Positions 6,598 through 34,043 of a stretch of 36,084 bases of DNA are shown piece after piece. Below the pieces are notes generated by a model. It saw nothing but the letters and a program-made list of their open reading frames with translations, was not told where the DNA came from and searched no databases. Location: NCBI GenBank assembly GCA_004402895.1, contig SORT01000016.1, positions 1 through 36,084 of the forward strand. The letters run 5' to 3'. The position numbers and the translations under genes were made by a program. Source of the DNA: Fidelibacterota bacterium MT.SAG.3 (lineage in GTDB: Bacteria > Fidelibacterota > SORT01). Every line of letters begins with the position of its first letter. Position 1 is the first letter of the stretch.

Positions 6598-8202
6598 ATG
6601 AATAAACTAAAAAGAATTTTAAATATAATTACAGACTTAAATGATCTGAAAAGCCTTGCAGCTCATGAAAAGATTTTAAGTGCGATCATGAAGCTTGGCG
6701 ATTTAATCCCTCAGAAATACAGTCATATGAATCTAATCGATATTATCTTACCAAAAACTTATGGATACCATACAGGCTTTGATAATATCTTTCACGATTA
6801 TTGTCGTTTGGCACAATCTGTCAAAAAGGTTATTCGGCATGAACAATTATCTAAACAAGTATCGTATCACATCTTAAAAATAATTAATTCATCAAGGCTG
6901 AAGAAGCGAATGGAAAATAATAAGAACGAAATGGAAATCTACTTTCAGAGTGCGGGAAGCGGAAGAGGCGAACGCAGCAAAGACATTTTGTATAATCTAT
7001 TTTTCGCTAATTCGCAAACTTACTTGCGCGTTTTAGTTTTATACATACAGCAAAGTCAAAAAAAGAATAACTTGTTGGTAGTTCCAAAGTATCTTAGAAA
7101 CGTGGAAATTTTAAGAACAATAGATAAAAAGATGATAGTATATTTTGATGATTTCATTACGGATAATATTTATGAAATATATAACGACTCAATAAATGAA
7201 TTTACACATATCTTTAGAACAAATACCCACTCAATTAAAGAGATTTTCGCCATAGATGATTTTAATTTTTTCAAAATGATTGAAGTGGGAATCGAAAATG
7301 TTTTTAAATACTTGATTCCTCAAGCAATACTTTTTTATCTGACAGTAGAAGAAATATTCAGACATGTTGATGTGAATGCAGTTATAGGTGTAAGAGTAAG
7401 AAAAATATATGACAGGGCATTTTATACCTGTGCCAACCATCAAGGTATAAATAATTTTACCTTACTTCATGCAAACATCGGAAATGATTTTAGATATATA
7501 CATTCGATGGGGCATTTTAACGATTTAAAGGGTGTTTTTGTATGGTCTGAGCGACAAAAGCTTCTGATTGAAAGAGACAAGCTTTCAAACGTAGAGAATA
7601 TCTATGTGACCGGTTCTCCATTATTCATAAAATCAGTCAATTCTTTCAACAGGAGTAAAAAGATATGTATTTTATACGCGGGAGCCAAAAATGATTCGAA
7701 AGAGGTAAAAACATTAATTAAGATGATGAGTATGCTAAATAAAAAATATAAATTGATGATTAAAATTCACCCGGGGGTAGATGAAAGTTTATATGAACGA
7801 TTCGTCGATCAAGAAAATATCGTACTGATCCCAGGAAATCGTATCTTAGAAAATTATTTTAAAAATACTAGAATCTTAATAACAACAATATCGCTTGCAG
7901 CTATTCAAGCAATGTTAGAAGGTATACCAAGTATATTTTTATCCATAAATAATCGCTGGAAGGAAAGTCTTCAAACACTATACTATTTTGATAAGGTCGA
8001 AGAGGAGCAATTTGTAATTAAAGACAAAAAACATTTAATTTCGAAGGTTAACAATTTACTTGCTTCAGATAAATACTTAGAACGATTTATTTCTGAGCAG
8101 TTTAAATTTTTAGATAAGAGAATTCACTTACACTCAAATCTTCATGGAGCAGCTGAAAGAATAGGTAATATATTGGACAAGGGGAAATATGGAAAGAATT
8201 AG
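6598..8202 (+). CDS. Probable GT-B-type glycosyltransferase/surface-carbohydrate protein
   Basis: A 534-aa soluble-looking protein. Its C-terminal third resembles the donor-binding half of GT-B enzymes (CDP-glycerol transferase or capsule transferase-like): a Rossmann strand ICILYAGAKNDSKE, then IKIHPGVDE, then an ITTISLAAIQAMLEGIPSIF helix-loop typical of nucleotide-sugar binding. The N-terminal half is not recognised. It is very AT-rich (Asn/Lys/Ile-rich protein). A decayed copy of its C-terminal region lies downstream at about 9061-9382, so the gene once had a neighbour of the same family. The exact reaction cannot be assigned. Confidence 0.6.
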   Translation: MNKLKRILNIITDLNDLKSLAAHEKILSAIMKLGDLIPQKYSHMNLIDIILPKTYGYHTGFDNIFHDYCRLAQSVKKVIRHEQLSKQVSYHILKIINSSRLKKRMENNKNEMEIYFQSAGSGRGERSKDILYNLFFANSQTYLRVLVLYIQQSQKKNNLLVVPKYLRNVEILRTIDKKMIVYFDDFITDNIYEIYNDSINEFTHIFRTNTHSIKEIFAIDDFNFFKMIEVGIENVFKYLIPQAILFYLTVEEIFRHVDVNAVIGVRVRKIYDRAFYTCANHQGINNFTLLHANIGNDFRYIHSMGHFNDLKGVFVWSERQKLLIERDKLSNVENIYVTGSPLFIKSVNSFNRSKKICILYAGAKNDSKEVKTLIKMMSMLNKKYKLMIKIHPGVDESLYERFVDQENIVLIPGNRILENYFKNTRILITTISLAAIQAMLEGIPSIFLSINNRWKESLQTLYYFDKVEEEQFVIKDKKHLISKVNNLLASDKYLERFISEQFKFLDKRIHLHSNLHGAAERIGNILDKGKYGKN

Positions 8203-11017: not shown

Positions 11018-11998
11018 TTATCCTTCGACGTTTTTGTGCTCAACTGTAAACACTCCAGTATGGGATAAATCATATTTTTGCCAAAGCTCTCTAGGACTGA
11101 ATCTTTCACCTTTCTCTAAAAACTGCTCTATAACAATGAATCCGTCACCGGTTGCAATATATAGCTGGTCATGGCCGGAGCGTAAGAAAAAAGACCCCGG
11201 GGTCATATTTTCGAATTTTTCACTTGGGATTATCACTTTAAAAATATGGAATTCATTCTCTCCGTAAGACACGGTTGGACACTGAAATTGTGGAAATATG
11301 AATGCTCGAATATAATTAAATACTTCAACGCTGGATAAAGTCCAATCAATTTGTATATCAGTAAAGTCTATTGAGCTTAACGAATGATATGTAGCCTTAG
11401 ATTTATCTTGATGCTCGCCGACATGCTTACCTGTTATTAATTTAGGCAGAGTTTCAGCGAATAATTCAATTCCAGTACTTGTACATTTTTGGTAAACATC
11501 TTGAGCGTTGTATTCGTCTTTGATCCTGAAGGATTTTTCCCCAATAATATCACCTGTATCTATTCCTAGGTCCATATAATGAATAGTCACTCCGGCTTCT
11601 TCATCTCCATTAAGAAGAGTCCATGCAATTGTGTAAACACCCCGATTTCGTGGAAGAAGCGAAAAATGAACATTTATACATCCAAGTTCAGGATAATTTA
11701 GAACAGATCTCTTAATTATTTTTTCGTATTGGAAAGAAAATAGGAAGTCTAATTTTCTACCTCGGCATAGCTTCTCTATATCAGCTAGCGAAATCACTTT
11801 AGGTTTCAAAACCGGTATGTTTCGGTCGAGCGCAAATTTGATTAACGATTTCTGCCAGTTGTCTTTAGGAATATCTACACTGTGACCTATAATTCCTAAA
11901 ATGTTAATTTGTGGATTATCGACAAGAATCCTAGAACACTCTACACCAAGGTCATTTTTTCCTGAGATTATTACATTTAATGGATTACCGATTTCCAT
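11018..11998 (-). CDS. Two-domain formyltransferase (Fmt/ArnA-N-like sugar formyltransferase)
   Basis: A 326-aa protein with an N-terminal formyltransferase domain and a C-terminal OB-like domain. Catalytic residues are Asn109 and His111 (INVHFSLLPRNRG) and Asp in LGIDTGDII. The C-terminal part has the IDWTLSSVEVFNYIRAF pattern shared by Fmt and the ArnA transformylase domain. HFSLLP replaces the usual HPSLLP. It is the only minus-strand gene of the polysaccharide locus and sits between two broken genes of the same pathway. ATG 11998 has AAGGAA at 12004-12009 as its ribosome site. A housekeeping Fmt is unlikely in this position, but cannot be excluded. Confidence 0.75.
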   Translation of the reverse strand: MEIGNPLNVIISGKNDLGVECSRILVDNPQINILGIIGHSVDIPKDNWQKSLIKFALDRNIPVLKPKVISLADIEKLCRGRKLDFLFSFQYEKIIKRSVLNYPELGCINVHFSLLPRNRGVYTIAWTLLNGDEEAGVTIHYMDLGIDTGDIIGEKSFRIKDEYNAQDVYQKCTSTGIELFAETLPKLITGKHVGEHQDKSKATYHSLSSIDFTDIQIDWTLSSVEVFNYIRAFIFPQFQCPTVSYGENEFHIFKVIIPSEKFENMTPGSFFLRSGHDQLYIATGDGFIVIEQFLEKGERFSPRELWQKYDLSHTGVFTVEHKNVEG

Positions 11999-12158
11999 CT
12001 TGGATTCCTTATATATGCGTTACCAATATTTAGATTTACGAATTTATCTGGATAATTTAATCAATATCCATGAGCTTATCCTATTCCAATGTAATGTTTG
12101 GAATTATATATTATCAATATTATTTTTTCGGACGAAAAAGCTAGGAAGTCTTTATAAA

Positions 12159-12965
12159 ATGGAATCAACGATGAATGAAATAATAAATATACCTTTAGTA
12201 GATTTAAAGGCGCAGTATGATACAATAAAATCTGAAATAGATTCTGAAATGCAAGCTGTTATAAACAAAACAGCTTTTATTGGTGGGGAGTGGGTATCGA
12301 AATTTGAGGCAGCGTATGCTAAGGCATATGAAGTAAAACGTTGTATTAGCTGTGCAAACGGTACCGATGCGATTTATATTACCCTCAAAGTATTGGGCAT
12401 AGGGTCTGGTGATGAGGTAATAACAGTAGCAAGCTCATGGATTTCTACTTCTGAGACTATATCTCAAACTGGTGCCAAACCAGTTTTTGTAGATATTGAT
12501 CCAGATTATTACTTGATAGATATTTCAAAGATCGAGGAAAAAATTACATCAAAGACTAAAGCGATTATTCCCGTTCACATCTATGGACAACCCGTTCAGA
12601 TGGATGAAGTAAAAGAAATATGCGACTCCCATGGACTCTACCTCATAGAAGATTGTGCACAAGCAGTTTTTGCAGAATATAAGGGACAACGTGTAGGTAC
12701 ATTCGGAATCACTGGAACATTCAGTTTTTTCCCCAGGCAAAAATCTTGGTGCCTACGGTGATAGGGGAGCAATTATATCTAACGATGATGAATTCGCTTT
12801 ACGCTGAGCGATCAGGCTAGGAAGAAGATCACATCGATAAGCACATTAACAATCGATCGGATTGTTCAACACAGCGTGATTCTCGAACTCAATCTGCCTA
12901 GTTACACGCTTTAGAAGTCCAAAAAGAAAATAGCCGGATAGATCCATGATAAAAGCGAAAAAAGG
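12159..12965 (+). pseudogene. Frameshifted WbpE/WlbC-like DegT aminotransferase
   Basis: From ATG 12159 (AGGAAG upstream) the frame reads a clear DegT aminotransferase start: PLVDLKAQYDTIKSEID, then GTDAIYITLKVLGIGSGDEV and LIEDCAQAVFAEYKGQRVG. Near 12730 a run of four C has one base too many. The frame is lost at FSFFP; restoring it gives PGKNLGAYGDRGAIISND, the PLP-Lys segment. A TGA follows after FALR. Later scraps (SKKKIAG near 12920-12940) are broken by more stops. About 60% of the protein is recognisable. Together with the stumps at 10624-10995 it would complete a WbpB-D-E set. Confidence 0.85.
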
Positions 12966-15904: not shown

Positions 15905-16213
15905 ATGAAAAATAACCATTACAATTTTGAGGGGCTTTGGTTCGAAATATACAAAAAGATTCTAAAGTTGAACGATGGTCTCGGTGATAAAGGACTTGAC
16001 AAGGGGCAGCTAAGAGAAGTGGCGACCACGATCTTCATAGCTCAATCCAATAAAGGGGTCGTCCGGCCCTATAACTTCAGCAGGTTTCAGAGGGAAGTTC
16101 TCAAATTGACAGCTCCGGCAAAGGACAGAGCGCTCCAGCAGGCGATAATAGAGAGCATCAGCGACCTGACGGGAAATGGCAATGCGACGGAGGTCTATTC
16201 GGAGCAGAAATGA
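15905..16213 (+). CDS. Hypothetical protein, 102 aa
   Basis: Not recognised. The reading frame is open from 15620, but ATG 15905 has a good ribosome site (GAGAGGG at 15893-15899) and from there the composition becomes protein-like: a helical, charged small protein with IYKKILKLNDGLGDKG near the start and RPYNFSRFQREVLKLTAP in the middle. There are no Cys motifs and no membrane segment. It stands alone, followed by a 250-base spacer. It could be a regulatory or structural small protein; no function is proposed. Confidence 0.55.
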   Translation: MKNNHYNFEGLWFEIYKKILKLNDGLGDKGLDKGQLREVATTIFIAQSNKGVVRPYNFSRFQREVLKLTAPAKDRALQQAIIESISDLTGNGNATEVYSEQK

Positions 16214-17250: not shown

Positions 17251-17415
17251 AGAAGGGTTGGAGTAAGCTCCAAAAAGGTTGATGAGGAGAGGGTAGAATT
17301 TGATCGGTCTCTGCTTGAGGATAAATCAAACACTGTAACTGATGTCTGTAAGGCGCTCGGGATCAGAAAGTCGACACTCTACCACTATCTTAAAAAGTCG
17401 AAAAAAGATGAATAA
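17251..17415 (+). pseudogene. C-terminal stump of a serine recombinase (resolvase/invertase HTH)
   Basis: A frame open only between the stops at 17248-17250 and 17413-17415 reads RRVGVSSKKVDEERV, then SLLEDKSNTVTDVCKALGI and RKSTLYHYLKK. This matches the end of small serine recombinases: a basic linker, then the HTH_7 DNA-binding domain with the A-K-x-L-G-I-S-R-S-T-L-Y-R-Y-L pattern. The catalytic Ser domain is missing. It lies about 100 bases upstream of the unusual operon that begins at 17523, so it may be the relic of an integration or inversion enzyme. Confidence 0.7.
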
Positions 17416-17522: not shown

Positions 17523-17669
17523 ATGATCAATCCAGAAAACATCGAACGGATAGAAGTTACAACAAGGTGGGTTTCGGTAGTTGCTGCGGCTATCCTGGTA
17601 GGAATTCAGTTCACCCGGCTTGTCCAAACCCCGAACGAAGAATCTTCCGTTGACAAGCGAGAAAAGTGA
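17523..17669 (+). CDS. Small single-pass membrane protein, 48 aa
   Basis: First gene of the compact operon. ATG 17523 lies 6 bases after AAGGAG (17511-17516), a near-ideal ribosome site. The protein has a short polar N-terminus, one hydrophobic helix (about residues 17-33, VSVVAAAILVGIQF) and a charged tail. No family recognised. It overlaps the next gene in another frame. Tiny one-helix proteins at the head of an operon are common in phage and plasmid modules (general knowledge), but nothing specific can be claimed. Confidence 0.65.
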   Translation: MINPENIERIEVTTRWVSVVAAAILVGIQFTRLVQTPNEESSVDKREK

Positions 17670-17898
17670 CCCGAAGAAGAAACTCCCGGCGAAGGGCAAG
17701 GATAAAATAATCGAAGTGAACCTGAGGGAGGTGATAATCGGTTTTTTCTCACTCTTCGGAACAACATTTATACTTGCGTCGGGAATGATGTACTTAAGAG
17801 ATTTCTGGCGGTTCAGACGGCAACAAGCTCTGATCGAAGGAGCAAAAGAGATATTATACAAGTTCAGAAGAGGAGGTGACACAAGTGAAAAAGACTGA
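17650..17898 (+). CDS. Small basic membrane protein, about 82 aa
   Basis: The frame opens with a Lys/Pro-rich segment (KSDPKKKLPAKGKDK). One membrane helix follows (VIIGFFSLFGTTFILASG), then an Arg-rich helix (RDFWRFRRQQ), which suggests an N-terminus and C-terminus both near phosphate head groups or nucleic acid. Start is uncertain: TTG 17650 or TTG 17620, both inside the previous gene, neither with a clear ribosome site, so translation is probably coupled. The 3' end overlaps the next gene by 14 bases. No family recognised. Confidence 0.6.
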   Translation: MTSEKSDPKKKLPAKGKDKIIEVNLREVIIGFFSLFGTTFILASGMMYLRDFWRFRRQQALIEGAKEILYKFRRGGDTSEKD

Positions 17899-18025
17899 TG
17901 AAGGTTATAGTATTACAAACGAGGAGGTGCAAAAGGCTACACGCATACTTGGCTATGTAGGACTTGCCATGCTTGCAACACGGCTTTTCAAGATTCTCTT
18001 CTGGCCGCCCGTGGGTGAGAAATGA
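17885..18025 (+). CDS. Small single-pass membrane protein, 46 aa
   Basis: Too short for routine gene lists but well supported. GTG 17885 is 5 bases after a perfect AGGAGGTGA (17871-17879). The frame continues for 46 codons and its TGA overlaps the next ATG as ATGA. The protein has a polar N-terminus (MKKTDEGYSITNEEV), then a hydrophobic helix around residues 22-40 (ILGYVGLAMLATRLF) and an FWPPV end. Together with its neighbours it forms a run of four tiny hydrophobic proteins. Function unknown. Confidence 0.65.
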   Translation: MKKTDEGYSITNEEVQKATRILGYVGLAMLATRLFKILFWPPVGEK

Positions 18026-18273
18026 GCGTAACAAAATTACGGTTTAACTTAAGCTCAAGTTCTTTGGCTAAATCGATGACACTAATTTCTAACTCTTTGG
18101 TACTCGCGACGAACAGCTATTTGTTAGGAAGGTCTGTTCTCGATCATTTCAGAGATAGGAAGAGAGAGCGGATATTAGAGAATCTTGAGATCATCTCTCA
18201 AACACTCGGATCAATAGGATCGCTATCAAAAGTGATTACGAACGTCCTGGATGAAAATGCGAACCATCAATAA
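18022..18273 (+). CDS. Small hydrophobic/amphipathic protein, 83 aa
   Basis: ATG 18022 overlaps the stop of the previous gene by 4 bases (ATGA), meaning coupled translation. Residues 15-40 are Ser/Leu/Ala-rich and hydrophobic (LISNSLVLATNSYLLG), followed by a charged stretch (DHFRDRKRERILENL) and an amphipathic helix. It may be membrane-associated. It overlaps the next gene by 23 bases. No homologue recognised. Confidence 0.6.
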   Translation: MSVTKLRFNLSSSSLAKSMTLISNSLVLATNSYLLGRSVLDHFRDRKRERILENLEIISQTLGSIGSLSKVITNVLDENANHQ

Positions 18274-18793
18274 GACTTGGGAGCCAGAAGATAGAAGATA
18301 TGTTGAAGGAAACCTTCAATGCCAGTGGTGTGGAAACACTACCGGATTTTCTATCGATATGAGACTCAAGCATGAGGTTGCATTAAGCAGTTCAGGACTC
18401 GTTGTCGGGTTGAATAGTGATAAACAAAAAAGGATAGAGAAATCACTCTCGTCTAACATCCATAGGATAGTCGACAAATACCATGAGACAGGCAAGGAGA
18501 TAGTCAAGTGTTCCAACTGTGAGATGGCAGAAGGTGTCGACTTCCAGGAGCGTATCATAGACCAGTGCTGGCAGATGGGTTGTCCCGGCTGCTGGCACTG
18601 TGGCGAGTACATCGATGAAGAGGAGGTAAAGTCTCTTTGTGGAGAGTGCATCAGGGAAAAGCATGGCAATATAGACGAAGACGATTGCTCGACCATCTGT
18701 CCGAACTATGATCAGGGTCTCTCCGAGGTTAGAGAGCACTACGGATTGGATCTCGAAGAACTAAAGAGAGAAGAGGGTTACATCAATAACTAA
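18251..18793 (+). CDS. Cys-rich zinc-ribbon-like protein A, 180 aa
   Basis: Contains 12 Cys at about residues 24, 27, 87, 90, 106, 111, 114, 117, 130, 133, 146 and 150, nearly all as CxxC pairs, so it should bind several zinc ions. The first part (CQWCGN, then a strand segment with GFSIDM and SSSGLVVG, then a helix and CSNC) has the same layout as the proteins at 19705 and 20087. The second part (QMGCPGCWHCGEY, LCGEC) is extra and rubredoxin/ribbon-like. The C-terminus is acidic. ATG 18251 overlaps the previous gene; ATG 18257 is also possible. Nucleic-acid or protein binding is plausible; no family is recognised. Confidence 0.65.
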   Translation: MKMRTINKTWEPEDRRYVEGNLQCQWCGNTTGFSIDMRLKHEVALSSSGLVVGLNSDKQKRIEKSLSSNIHRIVDKYHETGKEIVKCSNCEMAEGVDFQERIIDQCWQMGCPGCWHCGEYIDEEEVKSLCGECIREKHGNIDEDDCSTICPNYDQGLSEVREHYGLDLEELKREEGYINN

Positions 18794-18822
18794 ATAGCCA
18801 AACAGCAGAACCTCAAACCAAG

Positions 18823-18857
18823 AAAGCCCGTGACTGATGACAAGGTTGCGGGCTTTT
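18823..18857 (+). terminator. Hairpin terminator inside the operon
   Basis: AAAGCCCG (18823-18830) pairs perfectly with CGGGCTTT (18849-18856); the loop is 18 bases and TTTT ends at 18857. It lies 30 bases after the Cys-rich gene. The GTG at 18830, which would otherwise be the start of the next open frame, is part of this stem. That argues for the downstream ATG 18878 as the true start. Confidence 0.6.
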
Positions 18858-18877
18858 CCTATCCGTGCGGAGGAGAG

Positions 18878-19708
18878 ATGAAAGATGATGAGATTAGGTC
18901 TACGAAAGAAAGAAAAGGATGGCTGCTGCCTTATCTCCTGAAGTTAGATGAGATCTTCTTCGGTCGATGGGAGTACTGGTTTAATATAATTGAATCGGAC
19001 AAGATCCTTAAGGGACCTATCCCTCAAATTCCGTTCAAGGCTGCGGAAGAATACACAGAACGATTGGTTCAGAAGAATATCAGAAGATGTCTTGATAGAG
19101 GGTCAAGAGAGCTTTCATACTCATTGGGTCTGTTTGTCGACTGGATCATGTGGGGACTTGGGAAAGAAGAAGAATTTCCTAACGTATCAGAGAAGTTAGA
19201 TGATTATTGGTATCGAACTTTCAACCTAGGTCTCTTTTACAAGGAACCTGCCGACCATTGGAGTATGATCGCCATGGAGTCAATGGGTAAGGGTAACGGT
19301 CATGGGTTCTTCCCCACTCCGGCAAGTGTGGTAAAGATGATGACGCAGATGACATTCTCCGGACAACCGATAGAAAAGCAGAAGAGAGCCTCATTGATGG
19401 ACCCCTGCTGTGGGACAGGAATCATGTTTCTCTACGCCTCAAACCATACACTCAACATTCAAGGAAACGATATAAGCCCGATCCTGGTCAAGATGGCTAA
19501 AATAAATGCCTCTATCTATATACCCTGGCTCGCTTACAGGCCGGATAGTTTAACGATCTTCGACAGATCAGTAGACAATCTCCAAACTATTAACTTGAGC
19601 GCACAGCATTCAGTTGAAAATGATGGACTTGGAGGGCTGTCCGTAGCAGAACCTGACATATCAAAAGAACTGTTAACAGAGATATCTAAAAAGGAGAGGG
19701 TTAAATGA
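18878..19708 (+). CDS. N6-adenine methylase-fold protein lacking the catalytic NPPY motif
   Basis: Residues 141-158 (GHGFFPTPASVVKMM) match the target/motif X region of type I-like N6 DNA methylases. Motif I, LMDPCCGTGIMFLYA, is at about 174-188 and the SAM-contacting NDISP at 197-201, so it should bind SAM. The protein (276 aa) ends about 75 residues later without any N/D-P-P-Y/F, which such enzymes need for transfer. The N-terminal 130 residues are not recognised. ATG 18878 is 5 bases after GCGGAGG. The end overlaps the next gene as ATGA. It may be an inactive regulator or a divergent enzyme. Confidence 0.75.
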   Translation: MKDDEIRSTKERKGWLLPYLLKLDEIFFGRWEYWFNIIESDKILKGPIPQIPFKAAEEYTERLVQKNIRRCLDRGSRELSYSLGLFVDWIMWGLGKEEEFPNVSEKLDDYWYRTFNLGLFYKEPADHWSMIAMESMGKGNGHGFFPTPASVVKMMTQMTFSGQPIEKQKRASLMDPCCGTGIMFLYASNHTLNIQGNDISPILVKMAKINASIYIPWLAYRPDSLTIFDRSVDNLQTINLSAQHSVENDGLGGLSVAEPDISKELLTEISKKERVK

Positions 19709-20118
19709 AGCTGATCTGTATCGACTGCGGTAACTATACATACTTTGCTGCTGATATCGAGATGCAGATGGCGGTTTTGTCTCATGATGGAAGTGTCTCA
19801 ATTGAGAATGCAGAGCAGGAGAGCTACGACTATACGTCAGACTCAGTAAGAAGATCCTTGGATGACTTGATCGGATACGTACTGAGAACAGGTGAAGATC
19901 TCCTGATCTATAACAGGAAGATCAATCGATATGAGAACAGGTATATAACATGTGTCTGGTGTGGATCATCCAGCGTCACACCACCGTCTTGTGAGTATAT
20001 CCAACCAGAAGAGTATCTGTCCATAGACGAAGAATTAAATAACAACCGAAATGAATATCTACGACTCAAAAAGGAGGGAAGAAGAGATGCATATCTATTG
20101 CCCGAACAGGGGTTGTAA
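19705..20118 (+). CDS. Split zinc-ribbon-like protein B, 137 aa
   Basis: Two Cys pairs, C5/C8 (CIDCGN) and C83/C86 (CVWCGS), flank about 75 residues containing a strand-rich part (FAADIEMQMAVL, HDGSVSI) and a helix (SLDDLIGYVLRTG). The order and wording follow the protein at 18251 (CQWCGN ... SIDM ... CSNC), so the two look paralogous. A long charged helix follows, rich in Glu, Asn and Lys. ATG 19705 overlaps the methylase stop, and AAGGAGAGG stands before it. Unknown function; zinc binding is inferred. Confidence 0.65.
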   Translation: MKLICIDCGNYTYFAADIEMQMAVLSHDGSVSIENAEQESYDYTSDSVRRSLDDLIGYVLRTGEDLLIYNRKINRYENRYITCVWCGSSSVTPPSCEYIQPEEYLSIDEELNNNRNEYLRLKKEGRRDAYLLPEQGL

Positions 20119-20362
20119 TAACGCAAAGAAGTTTCTGATCCCTCTATGGGTCCGGTGCACTTTCAGGTTCGATGATGACGGAAAGATAAAGCTGCTTCAT
20201 CTGAAACAGTTGGAGTCTTTGGAGGAGAAACTTGCCGCTACAGGTAAGAGCGACTTCTCACTCACCTGTCAGGAATGCGGCGAACCGGCGGAGATAGTTT
20301 TCAATGAGTATGAATCTGTAAGTGAAGAGAGTTCACAAAAAGAAGCGTTGGAGGGACTCTAA
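20087..20362 (+). CDS. Split zinc-ribbon-like protein C, 91 aa
   Basis: The shortest of three similar proteins. C5/C10 (YCPNRGCNN) and C61/C64 (CQECGE) flank a strand segment (VRCTFRFDDDGKIKLL) and a helix (LEEKLAATG). The whole gene overlaps its predecessor by 32 bases. The start was set to ATG 20087 because AAGGAGG lies 9 bases before it; the frame is also open from 20051. Its stop touches the ATG of the next gene. Unknown function. Confidence 0.65.
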   Translation: MHIYCPNRGCNNAKKFLIPLWVRCTFRFDDDGKIKLLHLKQLESLEEKLAATGKSDFSLTCQECGEPAEIVFNEYESVSEESSQKEALEGL

Positions 20363-21220
20363 ATGGACGATTATAAGCAGATGATCAGAGAGTCAATTGC
20401 GACAGAGATCGGAGAGTGGATTGAGCGGCTGAAGATTCAAACACCGGAGATAAAGCTTACACGACAGTGGAAGGTCTTCTTTCCGAGAGGTTTTGAACCG
20501 GGCAACAATGTTCTGCCTGTCATTACCGGTTCAAAGGAAGGCAAGCGGCTGATAGGTGAAGTGAGTTTCATACTTCCGGAGACCCTAGAACTCGATACCG
20601 AAGACTTAAGCCTGACACTCAAAGATGAACCATTCAAGGAAACAAAAGAGCCAACGGTCACACCCGAACCGATGGAGGACTCGCTTGATCTATTGAACAG
20701 GATGGTAGTGAGTATAAACGAGTTTCTCTCCGGTGTTGAGATTGAGCGTCCCGGAAGAGGTGAGAACCGAAGAGAGACACCATTCTTCGGAATAGATGTC
20801 GAGAAGAAGAGCAAGCTGAACGTGATCTCTTTTGATAACGGCCAGAGCGGAGAGACGAAACTGTCTGTGGACAAGCTCGACACTGTCAAACGTGAGATGT
20901 TGGCATCAAGCCATCTTCCAGAATGGTTCAAGACAATCAGTTCTTATGAGATCAGGGACTCTCTACTTGAGAAACTGACCGAAGGATATATACACTACAA
21001 AACCAAACTCGGTCGTGATGTTCCGTTAAGAGAATTCTTTAGTGAATACACCGCTCATCTCAAGAAAACAGATAAGCTCCACGACTACTGTCCCTACAAG
21101 GCAAAGCCTGTAAACCTCACGGAGAAGGGACATTGTTTAGAGGATTACTGTTCAAAAAAACCTTACAACGCGCCGTGCAGCGTTCCCGGTCTAAAATTCG
21201 GTAAGAAACCTAAGGAGTAA
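20363..21220 (+). CDS. Unknown operon protein with Cys-rich tail, 285 aa
   Basis: Not recognised. Residues 1 to about 80 look globular (WKVFFPRGFEPG, GEVSFILPETLEL). A Pro/Glu/Thr-rich linker follows at about 90-110 (KEPTVTPEPMEDSL), then a second domain. The last 50 residues hold four Cys (DYCPY, GHCLEDYCSKKP, APCSVPG), likely a small zinc or iron-sulfur knuckle. ATG 20363 starts directly after the previous stop, with GGAGGG at 20350-20355. It sits between the zinc-ribbon proteins and the sliding clamp, so a role with DNA is possible but unproven. Confidence 0.6.
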   Translation: MDDYKQMIRESIATEIGEWIERLKIQTPEIKLTRQWKVFFPRGFEPGNNVLPVITGSKEGKRLIGEVSFILPETLELDTEDLSLTLKDEPFKETKEPTVTPEPMEDSLDLLNRMVVSINEFLSGVEIERPGRGENRRETPFFGIDVEKKSKLNVISFDNGQSGETKLSVDKLDTVKREMLASSHLPEWFKTISSYEIRDSLLEKLTEGYIHYKTKLGRDVPLREFFSEYTAHLKKTDKLHDYCPYKAKPVNLTEKGHCLEDYCSKKPYNAPCSVPGLKFGKKPKE

Positions 21221-21226
21221 ATAAAT

Positions 21227-22294
21227 ATGCTACAGAATCTAATGAAATTTATTCAGTTGGCTCAAAAGATAGTACCAAAGAGATCGACTCTTCCGATACT
21301 AACTTGCGTTTGTGTTGAGGATGGCTATATAAGGGCGACGGATCTTGAAACGACCATCAGAATGCCGATCGACGATAAACGAAACTACACGCTCCCCTTC
21401 GGAGTCCTAAAGAGCATCATGAAATCGAAACCGCAGGAGATCGAGATCGATCTCCTGCCCAACCGGCAGGCCAAACTGAGCTACGACGGCAGAGATCTGC
21501 TTCTGAAAACACTCGATCCGGATGACTTTCCATTGTTGCCGAAGGGAAATTTCAAATCGATAGCTACGTGGCCCAACATGACTATCAAAGCTCTCGGGTG
21601 TATGACAGCCTTCACGTCAAAGGAGGAGCTTAAAGAGGCCCTCAGAGGCGTATATGTCAAAATAGGAGAGGATCTGACGTTCGCCGCGACCGATGGCCAT
21701 CTATTGCGCGAAACGAGGATAAAGCTAGATGGTTCTTATGAGAAAGCCGAGTTCAAGGGAATCATACCCGTTCTTCCACTGGATATTGTAACACGCTGTG
21801 CGGGAAGCTCCACAGAGGTATCTTGTTCCAAGAGTCATATAAAGTTCACGCTACCATCTGAGATAGAAATATTCATACGGCTTATCGATGAGAAGTATCC
21901 GCCGTATGAGGAGTTCGTCAATGGCGAAAAGGAAAACTCGGTCGAGTTCTTGAAAAACGATATGACGACGCTTATCAAGGAAGCAAAGGAGTTTACGGAT
22001 AAAACGACCTATAGAGCCGAGCTCGTCGCTTCAAATGGGTCGATAGAGCTAAGGACAGACGATCATGAGAGAGAACTCTCCTTTGAATCATCACTACCGG
22101 GAGAAAACAGGAAGGGCGGAAGTGAACGGACCGGCTTTAATCTCAAATACCTTGAGAAAGTCATTAAAAGTATCAACGGCGAAAGAATCAGATGGGAATA
22201 CTCTAAGCCGATCGAGGCGAGTTATTTTCGCGGAATCGGAAAAGAAGATGAAGGTATAACTAATCTATTGATGCCAGTGCGGCTGGAGGATTAG
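21227..22294 (+). CDS. dnaN: DNA polymerase III beta sliding clamp (DnaN) homologue
   Basis: A 355-aa ring-forming processivity clamp. The N-terminus has the clamp pattern KFIQLAQKIVPKRSTLPIL followed by RATDLETTIRMPI. Domain 2 shows LRGVYVKI, LTFAATDGHLLRETRI, and domain 3 YPPYEEFV. The C-terminus is LLMPVRLED, matching the family's MPMRL end. Length is near the usual 366 aa, so all three domains are present. ATG 21227 follows AAGGAG and lies 6 bases after the previous gene. It is unusual here: no dnaA, recF or gyrB is near, and the sequence is divergent. This suggests a second clamp carried by a mobile module rather than the housekeeping copy. Confidence 0.9.
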   Translation: MLQNLMKFIQLAQKIVPKRSTLPILTCVCVEDGYIRATDLETTIRMPIDDKRNYTLPFGVLKSIMKSKPQEIEIDLLPNRQAKLSYDGRDLLLKTLDPDDFPLLPKGNFKSIATWPNMTIKALGCMTAFTSKEELKEALRGVYVKIGEDLTFAATDGHLLRETRIKLDGSYEKAEFKGIIPVLPLDIVTRCAGSSTEVSCSKSHIKFTLPSEIEIFIRLIDEKYPPYEEFVNGEKENSVEFLKNDMTTLIKEAKEFTDKTTYRAELVASNGSIELRTDDHERELSFESSLPGENRKGGSERTGFNLKYLEKVIKSINGERIRWEYSKPIEASYFRGIGKEDEGITNLLMPVRLED

Positions 22295-22296
22295 TC

Positions 22297-23085
22297 ATGA
22301 ACGAAAACTTTATAATAGATCTTCCGGAGAGGATAGAAGACCGGATCGAGGATTTTAAACTCTCTGCCGCAGAAGATGAGAAGAACTACACGACAGCCAA
22401 GATAAAACTCTGCCGTGAACCGGAAACAGACAGACCACTTCTGTTTTACTCGCAGGAGCTCATCCGGAACTTTAAGGATCCTTATGACCCATTCGGTAAA
22501 AGACATCTGATTAAGGTCTTCACACCGTCCAATCATCAGGCAGTGGCCGACACCTCTCTTGAGGGGAAGTTCAAGGATACTGTTCTAGCCCATAAAGATC
22601 TGATACTGGATTACTCGCCACTCACCGATATCCATTCTCAAAATATGAATCTATTCATAGATGAGGATACGGCACAGTTCATGGATGATGTAGGGATCAA
22701 TGTAGAAGGAATGGGTGAGGATTTCCGGTCGATAGAGTCCGTAACGGCGTCGCCCTTTCATGAAGAGGTCTCACATGATGCCATGGAACTCAAGAAAGAG
22801 CTCCGTCTACTCGGGGAAAGAGTGACTAATATCAAAAGGATGATGTCGGACGAGTTCGAAGATTACACCGATCCGGAGATTCTTAGCGACGGAGAGTTCG
22901 ATACCAGACTCGCTAATGAGAACATATCCTCAAGCCTGAGTCAGGAGTACCTGACCGTCAAAGAGAAGATCGAGAGGGTGAAGTCTCAGCTGGGAGAGCT
23001 CTCCTCGGCGGTCTTCAGTGAAGTGTCAACGCTGATCAAACTACCCAAAGCGATCGACGTTACAGACGATATGTTCATCTTTTGA
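22297..23085 (+). CDS. Unknown acidic protein with clamp-tail-like C-terminus, 262 aa
   Basis: Starts 2 bases after the clamp gene with TGGAGGA at 22284-22290, so the two are made together. The protein is strongly acidic. Residues 160-245 contain heptad-like helices (ELKKELRLLGERVTNIKRM, EYLTVKEKIERVKSQLGEL), probably a coiled coil. It ends in VTDDMFIF. Hydrophobic-aromatic C-terminal peptides of this kind bind sliding clamps in T4-type phage polymerases, so it may be a clamp partner (inference). No family recognised. Confidence 0.6.
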   Translation: MNENFIIDLPERIEDRIEDFKLSAAEDEKNYTTAKIKLCREPETDRPLLFYSQELIRNFKDPYDPFGKRHLIKVFTPSNHQAVADTSLEGKFKDTVLAHKDLILDYSPLTDIHSQNMNLFIDEDTAQFMDDVGINVEGMGEDFRSIESVTASPFHEEVSHDAMELKKELRLLGERVTNIKRMMSDEFEDYTDPEILSDGEFDTRLANENISSSLSQEYLTVKEKIERVKSQLGELSSAVFSEVSTLIKLPKAIDVTDDMFIF

Positions 23086-23120: not shown

Positions 23121-23333
23121 ATGCCGATATATGAATACAGGTGCAACAGTTGTGATAATCTTTTTGATCGACTCCAGAAGCGTGATGATGATGAACCCGA
23201 TTGTCCGGTATGCGGTCGTGCCGTCATGAGGATTTTCAGTCCTACAGGGCTACGGTTCAAGGGAACCGGTTTCCACGCGACAGATTATGGAAAAAGAGGA
23301 CCCAAGAACAGAGTGAGCGCAAGAAAGAGTTAA
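23121..23333 (+). CDS. FmdB-family zinc-ribbon protein
   Basis: A 70-aa protein with the classic FmdB/CxxC_CxxC_SSSS start MPIYEYRCNSCDNLFD and second pair CPVCGR, then RIFSPTGLRFKGTGFHATDY. Many bacteria have this small zinc-ribbon protein; it is named after a regulator of formamidase, but its function is mostly unknown. ATG 23121 follows GAGGTGA. It is likely the first normal chromosomal gene after the cryptic operon, although a place within it cannot be excluded. Confidence 0.9.
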   Translation: MPIYEYRCNSCDNLFDRLQKRDDDEPDCPVCGRAVMRIFSPTGLRFKGTGFHATDYGKRGPKNRVSARKS

Positions 23334-29676: not shown

Positions 29677-31746
29677 ATGACCGAAAAGCCAAAAAGAAAA
29701 CTTGCCGCCATCATGTTCACCGACATGGTCGGCTATACCGCTCTTATGCAGAAAGACGAAAGCAAAGCGAGAGAGTTGATTCAACGGCATCGTGAACTGA
29801 TGAAGCCTCATGTGGAGAAACATGGCGGTGAGATACTTCAGTTTGTCGGTGACGGAACTTTCTGTACATTCGACAGCGCCATCGAAGCCGTAAATGCCGC
29901 TCTGGAAATCCAGTATGTGTTCAAATTGGAAGACGAGATGTCGCTGCGTATAGGCATTCACGTGGGAGATGTAGTGGTCGAAGGGGACGAGGTTTATGGT
30001 GACGGCGTAAACGTCGCGTCACGGATCGAACCGCTTGCCGAGCCGGGCGGAATTTGCGTCACGGATAAGGTTTATGATAATCTGAAAAATCAGCAGGGGA
30101 TGAAGATCACCTCTCTCGGCGAGAAGGAACTGAAAAATGTGCAGGATTCTCTTAAAATCTATTCAATAGAAGCTTCAATGGTTGAAGATTCCGGTAAAAC
30201 GGCAGATGCAACACCTCCCGACAAGGCAGTCGATGAATCAAAGAGAGAGAGCAAAACCGGTAAAAAGAAAATTATCTATATGGCAGTCGCGGCGTTAGCA
30301 ATCATCTTTCTTTCCGCCTGGCTGCTGCCCATATTTGAGCCGGGCGAGCGACAGCTGGAGGCATCGGGTGAGATACGCTCTATCGCAATCCTGCCTCTTG
30401 ATAATCTCTCGAATGATTCCGATCAGGAGTATTTCAGTGACGGGATGACCGAAGCGTTGATAGCGAACATAGCAAAGATACGTTCTCTTAAAGTCATCTC
30501 ACGCACTTCCGTTATGCGATATAAAGGAACGGATAAATCACTGCCCGAAATTGCTAAAGAATTAAATGTAGACGCCATTCTTGAAGGTTCCGTATTGCAC
30601 GCTGAGGGCGAAGTACGAATAACGGTCCAGCTGATTCGCGCTTCAACAGATGAACATTTGTGGGCAGAGAGCTACACAGACAGATTAGAAAATATTATGA
30701 TACTTCAATCCAAGATAGCAAGAGCGGTCGCCAAAGAGATCAAACTAACGCTTTCTCCCGAAGAAGAGCTAAGACTTTCATCGAATAAAAAAATAATTCC
30801 CGAAGCGCACGAAGCCTACCTGAGGGGAAAACATTTTTGGAATAAACGAACTTTCGATGATATACTAAAAGCATTAGAATTTTATAAGAGTGCGGTGGAG
30901 GTAGATCCCACATACGCATTGGCTTATATAGGCGAAGCTGAAAGTTATAGCCTGCTCCATGAATATGGGAATATGCCCTCGCAGGAAACTTATCCGAAAG
31001 CGGTGGCGGCTGCGAAAAAAGCGTTGGAGATCGATCCCACACTTGGAGAGGCTCACATTGTAATAGCGTATGCCTATTATGAGCACTACTGGGATTGGGA
31101 GAAAGCGGAGGAAGAATTCAAGATAGGAATAGAATTGAGCCCTAATTATGCAACTGGACACCAATGGTATGCTGAATTTCTTTTTAGAATGAGACGATTT
31201 GAGGAGGGGAGGAAGGAAATAAAGATCGCCCGCGAACTTGATCCGCTATCAATGATAATTCATCTAAATGAGGGTTTTGGCTATATATTGTCCGGTGATA
31301 GATACATTGGAATAGAAATTCTCCAAAATTTATCTAAGTTTAATCCTGAAAGCCCGTTTGTTCAATTTACCTTATATGCTTCATACAGAGTTGAAGGCAA
31401 TGATGAAGAAGCTTTTAAATCTTTTTTTCGTGAATTAGATTTAGTCGATGTCTCTACTGAAGAAATAGAAAAGATTAAAGTCGCTTATGAAACCGATGGA
31501 TGGAGAGGAATTGATTTGATGTTTCTTGAGCGGGATATTAAGGAGAGGGAGAGTCCTACCGATATTGCCAGGGATTACATTTGGCTAAAAGATTATGAAA
31601 AAGCGATAGATTGGCTTGAAAAGGGATTTGAAGAGAGGGACTTTGGAATGACTCAGATCTATTCATTTCCAATTTATCGTGCAGATGAACTGCTTCAAAA
31701 TAAACGATTCCAAGCGATACTAAAGAAAATGAATTTTCCTAAATGA
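29677..31746 (+). CDS. Class III adenylate/guanylate cyclase with TolB-like and TPR domains (copy 1)
   Basis: A 689-aa membrane-anchored protein. Residues 1-165 are the cyclase domain making cAMP or cGMP: metal Asp16 (FTDMVGYTALM), second metal Asp59 (QFVGDGTF), and transition-state Asn112 and Arg116 (YGDGVNVASRIE), so it should be active. A single membrane helix lies at about 200-222 (AVAALAIIFLSAWLLP). A FlgO/TolB-N-like domain follows (SIAILPLDNLS, YFSDGMTEALIANIAKI, AILEGSVLHAEGEVRIT). From about 370 on are TPR repeats (ALEFYKSAVEVDPTYALAYI, AKKALEIDPTLGEAHI). The last bases overlap the next gene as ATGA. Confidence 0.92.
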   Translation: MTEKPKRKLAAIMFTDMVGYTALMQKDESKARELIQRHRELMKPHVEKHGGEILQFVGDGTFCTFDSAIEAVNAALEIQYVFKLEDEMSLRIGIHVGDVVVEGDEVYGDGVNVASRIEPLAEPGGICVTDKVYDNLKNQQGMKITSLGEKELKNVQDSLKIYSIEASMVEDSGKTADATPPDKAVDESKRESKTGKKKIIYMAVAALAIIFLSAWLLPIFEPGERQLEASGEIRSIAILPLDNLSNDSDQEYFSDGMTEALIANIAKIRSLKVISRTSVMRYKGTDKSLPEIAKELNVDAILEGSVLHAEGEVRITVQLIRASTDEHLWAESYTDRLENIMILQSKIARAVAKEIKLTLSPEEELRLSSNKKIIPEAHEAYLRGKHFWNKRTFDDILKALEFYKSAVEVDPTYALAYIGEAESYSLLHEYGNMPSQETYPKAVAAAKKALEIDPTLGEAHIVIAYAYYEHYWDWEKAEEEFKIGIELSPNYATGHQWYAEFLFRMRRFEEGRKEIKIARELDPLSMIIHLNEGFGYILSGDRYIGIEILQNLSKFNPESPFVQFTLYASYRVEGNDEEAFKSFFRELDLVDVSTEEIEKIKVAYETDGWRGIDLMFLERDIKERESPTDIARDYIWLKDYEKAIDWLEKGFEERDFGMTQIYSFPIYRADELLQNKRFQAILKKMNFPK

Positions 31747-34043
31747 CAGATTCTCCCAAACGGAAATTAGCAGCCATCATGTTCACTGACATGGTAGGTT
31801 ACACAGCTCTCATGCAGAAAGATGAAACAAAAGCACGGGCGCTGATCGAAATGCAGCGCGCTCTTATGAAACCGTACCTGAAAAAGCATGGGGGTGAAGT
31901 GATCCAGTTTGTCGGTGACGGAACATTTTGCAGGTTTGAAAGCGCTATCGAGGCAGTGAACGCCGCACTTGAGATACAAAATATCATGGAAGTAGAGCCG
32001 GAGCTGAATCTTCGCATCGGAATACATGTTGGCGATGTTGTTATTGAAGGAGATGAAGTGTATGGTGACGGTGTTAATGTTGCGGCCCGGATAGAGCCGT
32101 TGGCAGAACCGGGGGATGTGTGTGTTTCTTCGCGTGTCAGAGACGATATTAAGAATCAATCAGGATTAAGTTTGACATCCCTCGGAATGAAGGGATTGAA
32201 AAATGTCGATGAAGAGATTGAGGTGTTTTCAGTTTCCAAAAGCGGTGAAACAAAGATACCGATCTCCGATATGCATAAAGAGAGCCCAAAAGGCGGAGTT
32301 GACAAACTTAAATGGTTTGGAACCGCTGCTCTGGTCACGGTTTTAGCCATTATCGGACTCAAAATTGACTTCGGCACCATGGATGCCGAGTCAACAGAAG
32401 AGCTGAATAGTTTTAGTATAGCTGTACTTCCATTCACTAATATGAGCGCGGATGCCGAGAACGAATTTTTCGCTGACGGAATTACAGAAGATATTCTTAC
32501 TCAGCTTTCTAAGATAAAGAGTTTAGAGGTGATCTCCCGAACCTCGATCATGCAATACAAGAACACGACTAAAAGTATGAGTCAGATAGCAGAAGAACTT
32601 GGAGTAGCGACGATTTTAGAGGGGAGCGTCAGGAGGGGCGGAAACCGCGTCAGAATAACCGCTCAGTTGATAGATGCGAGGACTGATAAACATATCTGGG
32701 CTAACAGTTACGACAGAGATTTAGACGATATCTTCGCCATACAGACCGACGTTGCTATCAAGATCGCAGCAGCTTTGGAGGCATCACTAACACCCGAAGA
32801 AGAGAAACGCATCAATGAAAAACCCACTGATAACTTGGAAGCATATGATTATTATCTGCGTGGTAACGAATATATGGCGAGGGATTTTCAATCTTCAAGT
32901 TTTACACTTGCTATTCAGATGTATGAACAGGCAATTGAGCTAGACAGGAATTTTGCCAATGCATATTCCAGATTATCATTTGCTCATTCGCAGATGTATT
33001 GGTTTTATCATGACAGGACAGAAGAACGACTTAGAAGATCTAAGAAAGCATTAGATAGAGCATTGATCATAAACCCCGATCTCCCGGAAGCGCACGCAGC
33101 ATTTGGATGGTATTATTATCATGGATATTTGGAATATGAAAATGCCCTTATGGAATTTCAAAAAGCAATTGATCTGGGACTAAATAATAGCCTGTTATAT
33201 GTGGGAATTGCCTCCGTTCATAGAAGACAAGGAAAAATGAAAGAAGCAATTGTCTATTTTCTCAAAGCAGAGGAATTAGATCCTCGCTCAACAGACGCAT
33301 ATTTTAATACGGCAGAGACTTATATGTTACTCAGACAGTATGATGAAGCAGTGAAGCACCTGAATAAGGCAATCTCTCTTGCGCCTGATCAAATGTTCAG
33401 TTATAATATTAAATTGTATCTCTATTTACAGAAAGATGCTGATCTTAAGAAAGCTAGATCAGTACTTGCTCAAGCAACAAAGAATGTCATCTCTGAATCG
33501 GATATCTTTTTCGTTTTAATGAATTACACAATAAATATTTTTGAAAGAAATTATGAAGATGCTTTGTATTCATGGTCTAAGGGAGATGAAGATGCCATTG
33601 ATGGTCAGTTCAATTATACTCACCACTATCATATTAAGGCATCGATATATAGATATCTTAAAAATCCTGAATTAGAGAAAACTTATTATGATTCTGCGTT
33701 GACAGTTTATAAAAGTATGATAGAAGAGAATCCAAAGGATAGCCGGCTTCATAGCTCTATCGGATTAGTATATGCTGGTTTAGGGAAAAAGGAAGAAGCA
33801 ATAAGAGCCGGTAAAAAGGGTGTGGAACTTCTGCCTATCAGCAAGGAAGCATGGCGAGGCGCGATTCGAGTTAGGGACCTCGCAAATATATATGCAGTTG
33901 TGGGAGAATTTGATCTGGCTCTTGATGAAATAGAACTACTGCTCTCTGTTCCAAGTACCTTGTCTGAGAATATTTTACGTCTTCATCCGAAATGGGATCC
34001 GCTTCGGAAGCATCCTCGATTTATTGCGCTCTTAAAAGATTAA
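31743..34043 (+). CDS. Class III cyclase with TolB-like and TPR domains (copy 2)
   Basis: 766 aa, paralogous to the preceding gene along its full length, with more TPRs. The cyclase domain keeps the same catalytic residues (FTDMVGYTALM, QFVGDGTF, YGDGVNVAARIE). The membrane helix is at about 190-208. TolB-like domain: SIAVLPFTNMS, FFADGITEDILTQLSKI, TILEGSVRRGGNRVRIT. About eight TPR-like repeats run to the C-terminus (ALDRALIINPDLPEAHAAFG, KEAIVYFLKAEELDPRSTDA, DEAVKHLNKAISLAPDQ). ATG 31743 overlaps the previous stop, so both are made together. Its stop overlaps that of the convergent NTF2-like gene by 2 bases. Confidence 0.92.
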   Translation: MTDSPKRKLAAIMFTDMVGYTALMQKDETKARALIEMQRALMKPYLKKHGGEVIQFVGDGTFCRFESAIEAVNAALEIQNIMEVEPELNLRIGIHVGDVVIEGDEVYGDGVNVAARIEPLAEPGDVCVSSRVRDDIKNQSGLSLTSLGMKGLKNVDEEIEVFSVSKSGETKIPISDMHKESPKGGVDKLKWFGTAALVTVLAIIGLKIDFGTMDAESTEELNSFSIAVLPFTNMSADAENEFFADGITEDILTQLSKIKSLEVISRTSIMQYKNTTKSMSQIAEELGVATILEGSVRRGGNRVRITAQLIDARTDKHIWANSYDRDLDDIFAIQTDVAIKIAAALEASLTPEEEKRINEKPTDNLEAYDYYLRGNEYMARDFQSSSFTLAIQMYEQAIELDRNFANAYSRLSFAHSQMYWFYHDRTEERLRRSKKALDRALIINPDLPEAHAAFGWYYYHGYLEYENALMEFQKAIDLGLNNSLLYVGIASVHRRQGKMKEAIVYFLKAEELDPRSTDAYFNTAETYMLLRQYDEAVKHLNKAISLAPDQMFSYNIKLYLYLQKDADLKKARSVLAQATKNVISESDIFFVLMNYTINIFERNYEDALYSWSKGDEDAIDGQFNYTHHYHIKASIYRYLKNPELEKTYYDSALTVYKSMIEENPKDSRLHSSIGLVYAGLGKKEEAIRAGKKGVELLPISKEAWRGAIRVRDLANIYAVVGEFDLALDEIELLLSVPSTLSENILRLHPKWDPLRKHPRFIALLKD

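Follow-up and report, generated by a model that had tools for sequence, protein, structure and literature searches.

A clamp-encoding operon of Marinimicrobia as the possible core of an undescribed integrative element family

What is a tightly packed row of eleven genes, among them one for a DNA sliding clamp, doing at the junction between a polysaccharide cluster and conserved genes in a Marinimicrobia genome? The question is raised by positions 17523-23085 of contig SORT01000016.1 (Fidelibacterota bacterium MT.SAG.3), a single contig of a Marinimicrobia metagenome-assembled genome (MAG) that is 69% complete; the contig was analysed over its whole length of 36,084 nucleotides and is called the window below. 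The block, whose genes we designate A to K, recurs in other genomes of the phylum and is, in our judgement, very probably the core of a mobile element family. More specifically, we read the window copy as one example of a conserved operon that forms the core of an as yet undescribed integrative element family in Marinimicrobia with clamp-based maintenance, and we give this reading a probability of about one half. Full-text literature searches returned nothing on such a module.

The eleven same-strand open reading frames (ORFs) named in the original prediction, which had been made from the bare sequence, are present and packed as one operon. Genes B and C overlap by 23 nt, C and D through the ATGA at 18022-18025, D and E by 23 nt, F and G through the ATGA at 19705-19708, and G and H by 32 nt, while E and F are separated by 36 nt and the spacing is 0 nt between H and I, 6 nt between I and J, and 2 nt between J and K. 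The junctions listed earlier were thus recovered, except for a 14-nt overlap of A and B, which could not be fixed because the start of gene B is uncertain (TTG at 17620 or 17650). The limits of the block had to be widened: gene Z, gene L and a resolvase remnant, all missed earlier, belong to it too. The features of the window copy are the following.

15905-16213, forward strand: gene Z, 102 aa, without family
17254-17406, forward strand: C-terminal remnant of a serine resolvase (HTH_7 region), preceded by stops
17523-17669, forward strand: gene A, 48 aa, single hydrophobic segment
17620-17898, forward strand: gene B, at most 92 aa (alternative start 17650), one transmembrane helix
17876-18025, forward strand: gene C, 49 aa, hydrophobic, lacking in some copies
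18022-18273, forward strand: gene D, 83 aa, weakly hydrophobic or amphipathic
18251-18793, forward strand: gene E, 180 aa, 12 invariant Cys, zinc-ribbon-like domain at the N-terminus (from the alignment)
18830-19708, forward strand: gene F, 292 aa, N6-methylase fold, C-terminal zinc ribbon degenerate in this copy
19705-20118, forward strand: gene G, 137 aa, zinc-ribbon-like protein
20087-20362, forward strand: gene H, 91 aa, zinc-ribbon-like protein
20363-21220, forward strand: gene I, 285 aa, without family
21227-22294, forward strand: gene J, 355 aa, element-type DNA sliding clamp
22297-23085, forward strand: gene K, 262 aa, without family
23121-23333, forward strand: gene L, 70 aa, FmdB-family zinc ribbon (TIGR02605/PF09723)

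The GC content of the operon A-K is 45.2%, as against 34.6% on the left (6-15.3 kb), so that the predicted enrichment over the polysaccharide genes holds, and 41.6% in the right flank; at third codon positions the values are 51% for the operon, ~36% for the polysaccharide genes and ~42% for the right flank. An Rfam search of the window matched no RNA family.

Does the same arrangement occur elsewhere? The profiles of K and E combined located the block in 12 of 245 Marinimicrobia genomes from eight families (K in nine genomes, E in 11), some of which carry two to four copies. At least 14 loci carry several of the genes in one common order, and this recurrence places the gene order beyond chance; the conservation that the original prediction had proposed to look for is therefore present. 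For instance, the whole set lies on a 7.3-kb contig of genome G025 in the order A B C D E F G H I J K Z L. Elsewhere, too, the block holds Z, L and often a RadC gene, a RadC JAB gene being added after K in the copies of families f15 and f18. In the relatives, gene L comes after K (and after Z or RadC). Z, which is 49% identical to both L022:3851-4162 and L023:606-884 and also gives a profile match, stands between K and L in the relatives and is displaced upstream in the window, beyond a HAD hydrolase. Among the small genes, homologues of A were found at the matching place in L021, L023, L025, L048, L049 and L079/L080, B is kept in about ten loci, homologues of C occur in L023, L043, L101 and L103, and D is kept in 11 loci. 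The ratio of nonsynonymous to synonymous substitution rates (dN/dS) was 0.05-0.18 for close-copy pairs of E, G, J, K, L and RadC, indicating that these genes are under purifying selection and in use.

Only J, F and the neighbour L were recognised by Pfam, PHROGs, NCBIfam and PADLOC (gene A was scanned against Pfam only, gene C against Pfam and PHROGs), in keeping with the earlier statement that most of the eleven genes fall in no recognised family; a Pfam scan of Z also gave no match. Some nine families without clear homologues in these four collections make up one conserved, selected unit that spans eight families of an uncultivated phylum. Two candidate findings were discarded. A recombination breakpoint between K and L had been suggested by the higher synonymous rate (dS) of K, and the excess turned out to be confined to the variable coiled coil. 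One contig of a Brocadia MAG carries block genes in the same order, and spread to the Planctomycetota was rejected, with the block in one of 294 sampled genomes and that contig probably mis-binned.

How, then, does the block come to lie in such different places? Five genomes (G225, G224, G221, G010 and G190) have recombinase genes, of differing types, as neighbours of the operon, and the presence of such genes beside several copies supports a mobile element. A serine resolvase is found immediately upstream of A in G225 (L048:8173-8796, PF00239 and PF02796) and likewise at two G224 contig ends. G221:C72 has both types upstream of A, first a resolvase, then a short tyrosine recombinase; a recombinase similar to the latter comes after L in G010, and G190 has a full tyrosine integrase together with an excisionase-like helix-turn-helix (HTH) gene near tRNA-Asn and tRNA-Phe. 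The resolvase remnant of the window (35% over 51 aa to the G225 resolvase, E 1e-6) occupies the place that matches the resolvase of the relatives, the window copy having otherwise lost its own recombinase. At the two G224 contig ends, the 127 bases from the start codon of A are identical and the resolvases are different, which we attribute to an assembly effect of two block copies and which suggests recent copying of the block in this genome. CHC2-Toprim, DUF3987 and DUF5906 primase/helicase genes lie within ~10 kb of the copies in G010, G231 and G224.

A site without the operon, another thing the original prediction had asked for, was found in a congener: over seven genes, contig G001:C18 runs colinear with the window's right flank, and it has another gene in place of the operon. 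Such a flank, together with the patchy distribution (12 of 245 genomes), is as expected of an integrative element. The congener also supplies an argument for a different explanation, in which the block is an ancestral, stable chromosomal operon of Marinimicrobia that serves in housekeeping or stress and has often been lost, and the recombinases are coincidental. Its contig G001:C7 shares the K-L-M junction with the window at 93-95%, implying inheritance at this site, and the strong purifying selection would suit such an operon as well; either G001:C18 or G001:C7 may not belong to the MAG of the congener. Nevertheless, several diverged copies occur per genome, the neighbours differ in every family, the recombinases directly touch gene A in several copies, and G001:C18 has the same right flank without the operon, so that we consider a stable chromosomal operon quite improbable.

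Some repeats were noted near the copies. Three 130-bp tandem repeats (L102:1869-2267) lie beside tRNA-Asn and tRNA-Phe in G190, close to its tyrosine integrase. The G025 contig has ~100-bp inverted repeats at both ends (L023:113-212 and 7206-7306), a third copy of which stands on another contig (L087:232-451) beside a tRNA-like end. We do not claim these repeats as the termini of a linear element, as the repeat is present elsewhere in the genome, and a circular plasmid was rejected for this 7306-bp contig, which has no terminal overlap.

Is the element a phage or plasmid of a known kind? An origin of this sort had been considered in the original prediction and is not borne out. In tblastn searches of 50,697 phages (GenBank) and 72,556 plasmids (PLSDB), K and I were without a match, and scanning IMG/VR with patterns of K, E, F, H and J, an approach that reaches only fairly close relatives, found nothing. 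PHROGs gave nothing on the operon proteins beyond the clamp and the methylase fold, Pfam and PHROGs detected no capsid, terminase, portal or tail genes of a prophage in the operon, and none of the loci showed a gene for a capsid, packaging ATPase, terminase or tail. Relaxases, type IV secretion and replication initiators had no Pfam match in the operon or the tested neighbours. These negative results tell against a virus or phage-satellite remnant, lipid-containing or satellite-like, whose structural genes would be among the unknown families. The small membrane proteins, the clamp, the integrases and the primase-helicase neighbours would all fit a remnant of this kind, as would a single-chain phage-type RNA polymerase beside the operon in G215 and an RNA polymerase fragment upstream of it in G221; taken together with the missing structural genes and database matches, we hold it to be very improbable.

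The G215 polymerase (L103:228-5021, minus strand; G215:C35:4227-9020) is a protein of 1597 aa encoded divergently to the operon, with Rpb2 domains 6 and 7 and Rpb1 domains 2 and 5, and is related to phrog_24349. It was rejected as a core gene, being unique among the 245 Marinimicrobia genomes. The 83-aa RNA polymerase beta fragment of G221:C72 (L104:1246-1497) belongs to the same phage-type family and sits between the resolvase, the tyrosine recombinase and the operon.

Some copies resemble phage-inducible chromosomal islands (PICI) or integrative and conjugative elements (ICE) in having a tyrosine integrase, an excisionase-like HTH gene or primase-helicase genes nearby (G010, G190 and G231). 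However, genes for capsid hijacking, packaging, relaxases or conjugation were not seen with the block, the core of which instead has a clamp, zinc-ribbon paralogues and membrane microproteins. The short RadC JAB gene, and an MMR_HSR1/DUF697 GTPase near the block in G231, recall the CP4-like RadC-bearing islands of enterobacteria, a likeness that serves as a lead only; these islands are not known to carry a clamp, and we saw no other gene in common.

The gene with the clearest identity is J. The sliding clamp of the original prediction was confirmed by matches to phrog_947 (E 1e-51) and to solved beta clamps (E 1.6e-35, aligned over the full length). J resembles the beta sliding clamp DnaN (TIGR00663/PHROG 947) in being a full-length, three-domain clamp with the peptide-cleft signatures TDxH and MP; T155, D156, H158, M349 and P350 are invariant in the alignment of relatives. 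TDGH and MPM(R)L are the peptide-binding cleft signatures of Escherichia coli beta. J differs from DnaN in that its score (111.1 bits) is below the equivalog cut-off of TIGR00663 (137.65 bits), in that the operon has no polymerase or clamp loader, and in that the element clamps form their own clade apart from chromosomal DnaN with support of 100/100, in a tree for which six chromosomal rows were kept and six were dropped for technical reasons. In the same tree, one G224 copy groups with G225 and another with G221.

F is the second gene with a recognisable fold. The methylase fold that had been predicted for it is supported by a match to PF02384 (30.1 bits, cut-off 20.4), and, like the type I N6-adenine methyltransferase HsdM, F retains motif X (GFFPTP or FFPTP) and motif I (DPCCGTG). 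Unlike HsdM, F has no catalytic motif IV, ends in a zinc ribbon in the relatives and does not adjoin HsdS or HsdR. The (N/D/S)PP(Y/F/W/L) motif was absent from all four full-length F proteins checked, and canonical adenine methylation by F is therefore unlikely; with neither a catalytic NPPY motif in F nor Pfam matches to HsdS or HsdR among the operon proteins, the block is not a type I restriction-modification system. F is shrunk to the zinc-ribbon domain alone in L022, L049, L101 and L105; by family, this reduction occurs in f7, f9 and part of f18.

This ribbon connects F with the Cys-pair proteins. Three of them had been expected, and three were found (E, G and H), with a fourth such domain on the F of relatives. 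According to profile comparison, the N-terminus of E, the C-terminus of F, G and H share one CxxC...CxxC domain (hhalign, 95.7% for G with E and 85% for H with E), and these zinc-ribbon-like domains are, to judge from their sequences, a paralogous series within one operon. I also ends in four invariant Cys, which follow an alpha/beta N-domain and a helical middle (alignment and AlphaFold2 model); the model is of moderate confidence (predicted local distance difference test, pLDDT, 68.5) and had no structural match in PDB or BFVD. K is the most conserved member, with a conserved core containing an invariant MxLFxD, which resembles the bacterial clamp-binding pentapeptide, and a coiled-coil C-terminus. 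Of the four micro membrane proteins that had been proposed, B is clear, A and C are plausible, and D is borderline and amphipathic, the maximum Kyte-Doolittle value over 19 residues in its relatives being 0.95-1.8.

How might these parts work together? The core encodes no recognisable ATPase, polymerase, nuclease or relaxase, and J may thus rely on the clamp loader of the host to be loaded on DNA. As the peptide-cleft signature is kept, J could recruit partners through the cleft, most likely K by its MxLFxD segment. E, G and H, with their zinc ribbons, and the non-catalytic methylase-fold F would bind DNA or each other, and A to D would anchor the complex of clamp, zinc ribbons and coiled coil at the membrane. 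The net effect would be replication-linked maintenance or copying of the element, a mechanism that we put forward only tentatively. If the clamp does recruit other proteins, the block would be a clamp-centred accessory system without known counterpart. Somewhat short of an even chance, in our estimate, is the broader proposal of a new mobile class, so far almost restricted to Marinimicrobia, in which paralogous zinc-ribbon proteins and a pseudo-methyltransferase form a membrane-tethered complex that is organised by an element-encoded clamp, has no ATPase of its own, and either replicates or holds the element or polices foreign replication.

The last possibility is close to the main competing explanation, a defence system having been among the options of the original prediction, namely that the block is anti-phage defence or counter-defence cargo carried on several mobile elements, where the clamp and zinc ribbons would sense foreign replication and A to D would damage the membrane. 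A constant core with changing recombinases, a patchy distribution and small membrane proteins, all observed here, are typical of defence cargo; RadC genes go with the block in f15 and f18, and the G010 copy is a few kb from two 1109-aa genes (L022:12008-18677), one helicase-like and one methylase-like, which look restriction-like by eye. On the other hand, PADLOC matched no system and gave generic methyltransferase models for F only, no domain of a nuclease, an NTPase or another known effector was found, and A and D are only weakly hydrophobic. Replication-linked maintenance would fit the clamp best, whereas defence would fit the distribution equally well; on balance we regard defence cargo as rather unlikely.

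Several observations weigh against an integrative element with clamp-based maintenance. The recombinase type varies by locus, so these genes could be features of insertion hot spots and not parts of the element itself, and neither the window nor G010 yielded convincing attachment (att) sites, terminal repeats or target duplications. The clamp is not essential, because J is missing in G214, where I runs straight into K. Only some of the K proteins have Q as the leading residue of the putative clamp-binding motif, and the AlphaFold2 model of K (pLDDT 48) is unusable for fold assignment. Whichever explanation holds, the block offers a concrete set of genes with which mobility, replication control or phage defence can be tested in a group without genetics.

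Minor observations concern the surroundings of the block. Genes for large exoproteins with an NPFNP sorting-type motif flank L022, L043, L045, L047, L048, L080 and L101; such large proteins account for eight of 34 flank genes (flanks of f7, f9, f15 and f18) versus four of 260 in a sampled background (Fisher p 5e-6), a small and not fully matched comparison that serves as a lead only. In many Marinimicrobia, rpoB and rpoC matches occur in a single frame of ~2,650-2,740 codons, which suggests a fused rpoBC. In the window itself, the end of a DegT-type aminotransferase ORF (11901-12761) is apparently truncated or frameshifted, and two tandem paralogues at 29677-34043 resemble adenylate/guanylate cyclases with TPR repeats.

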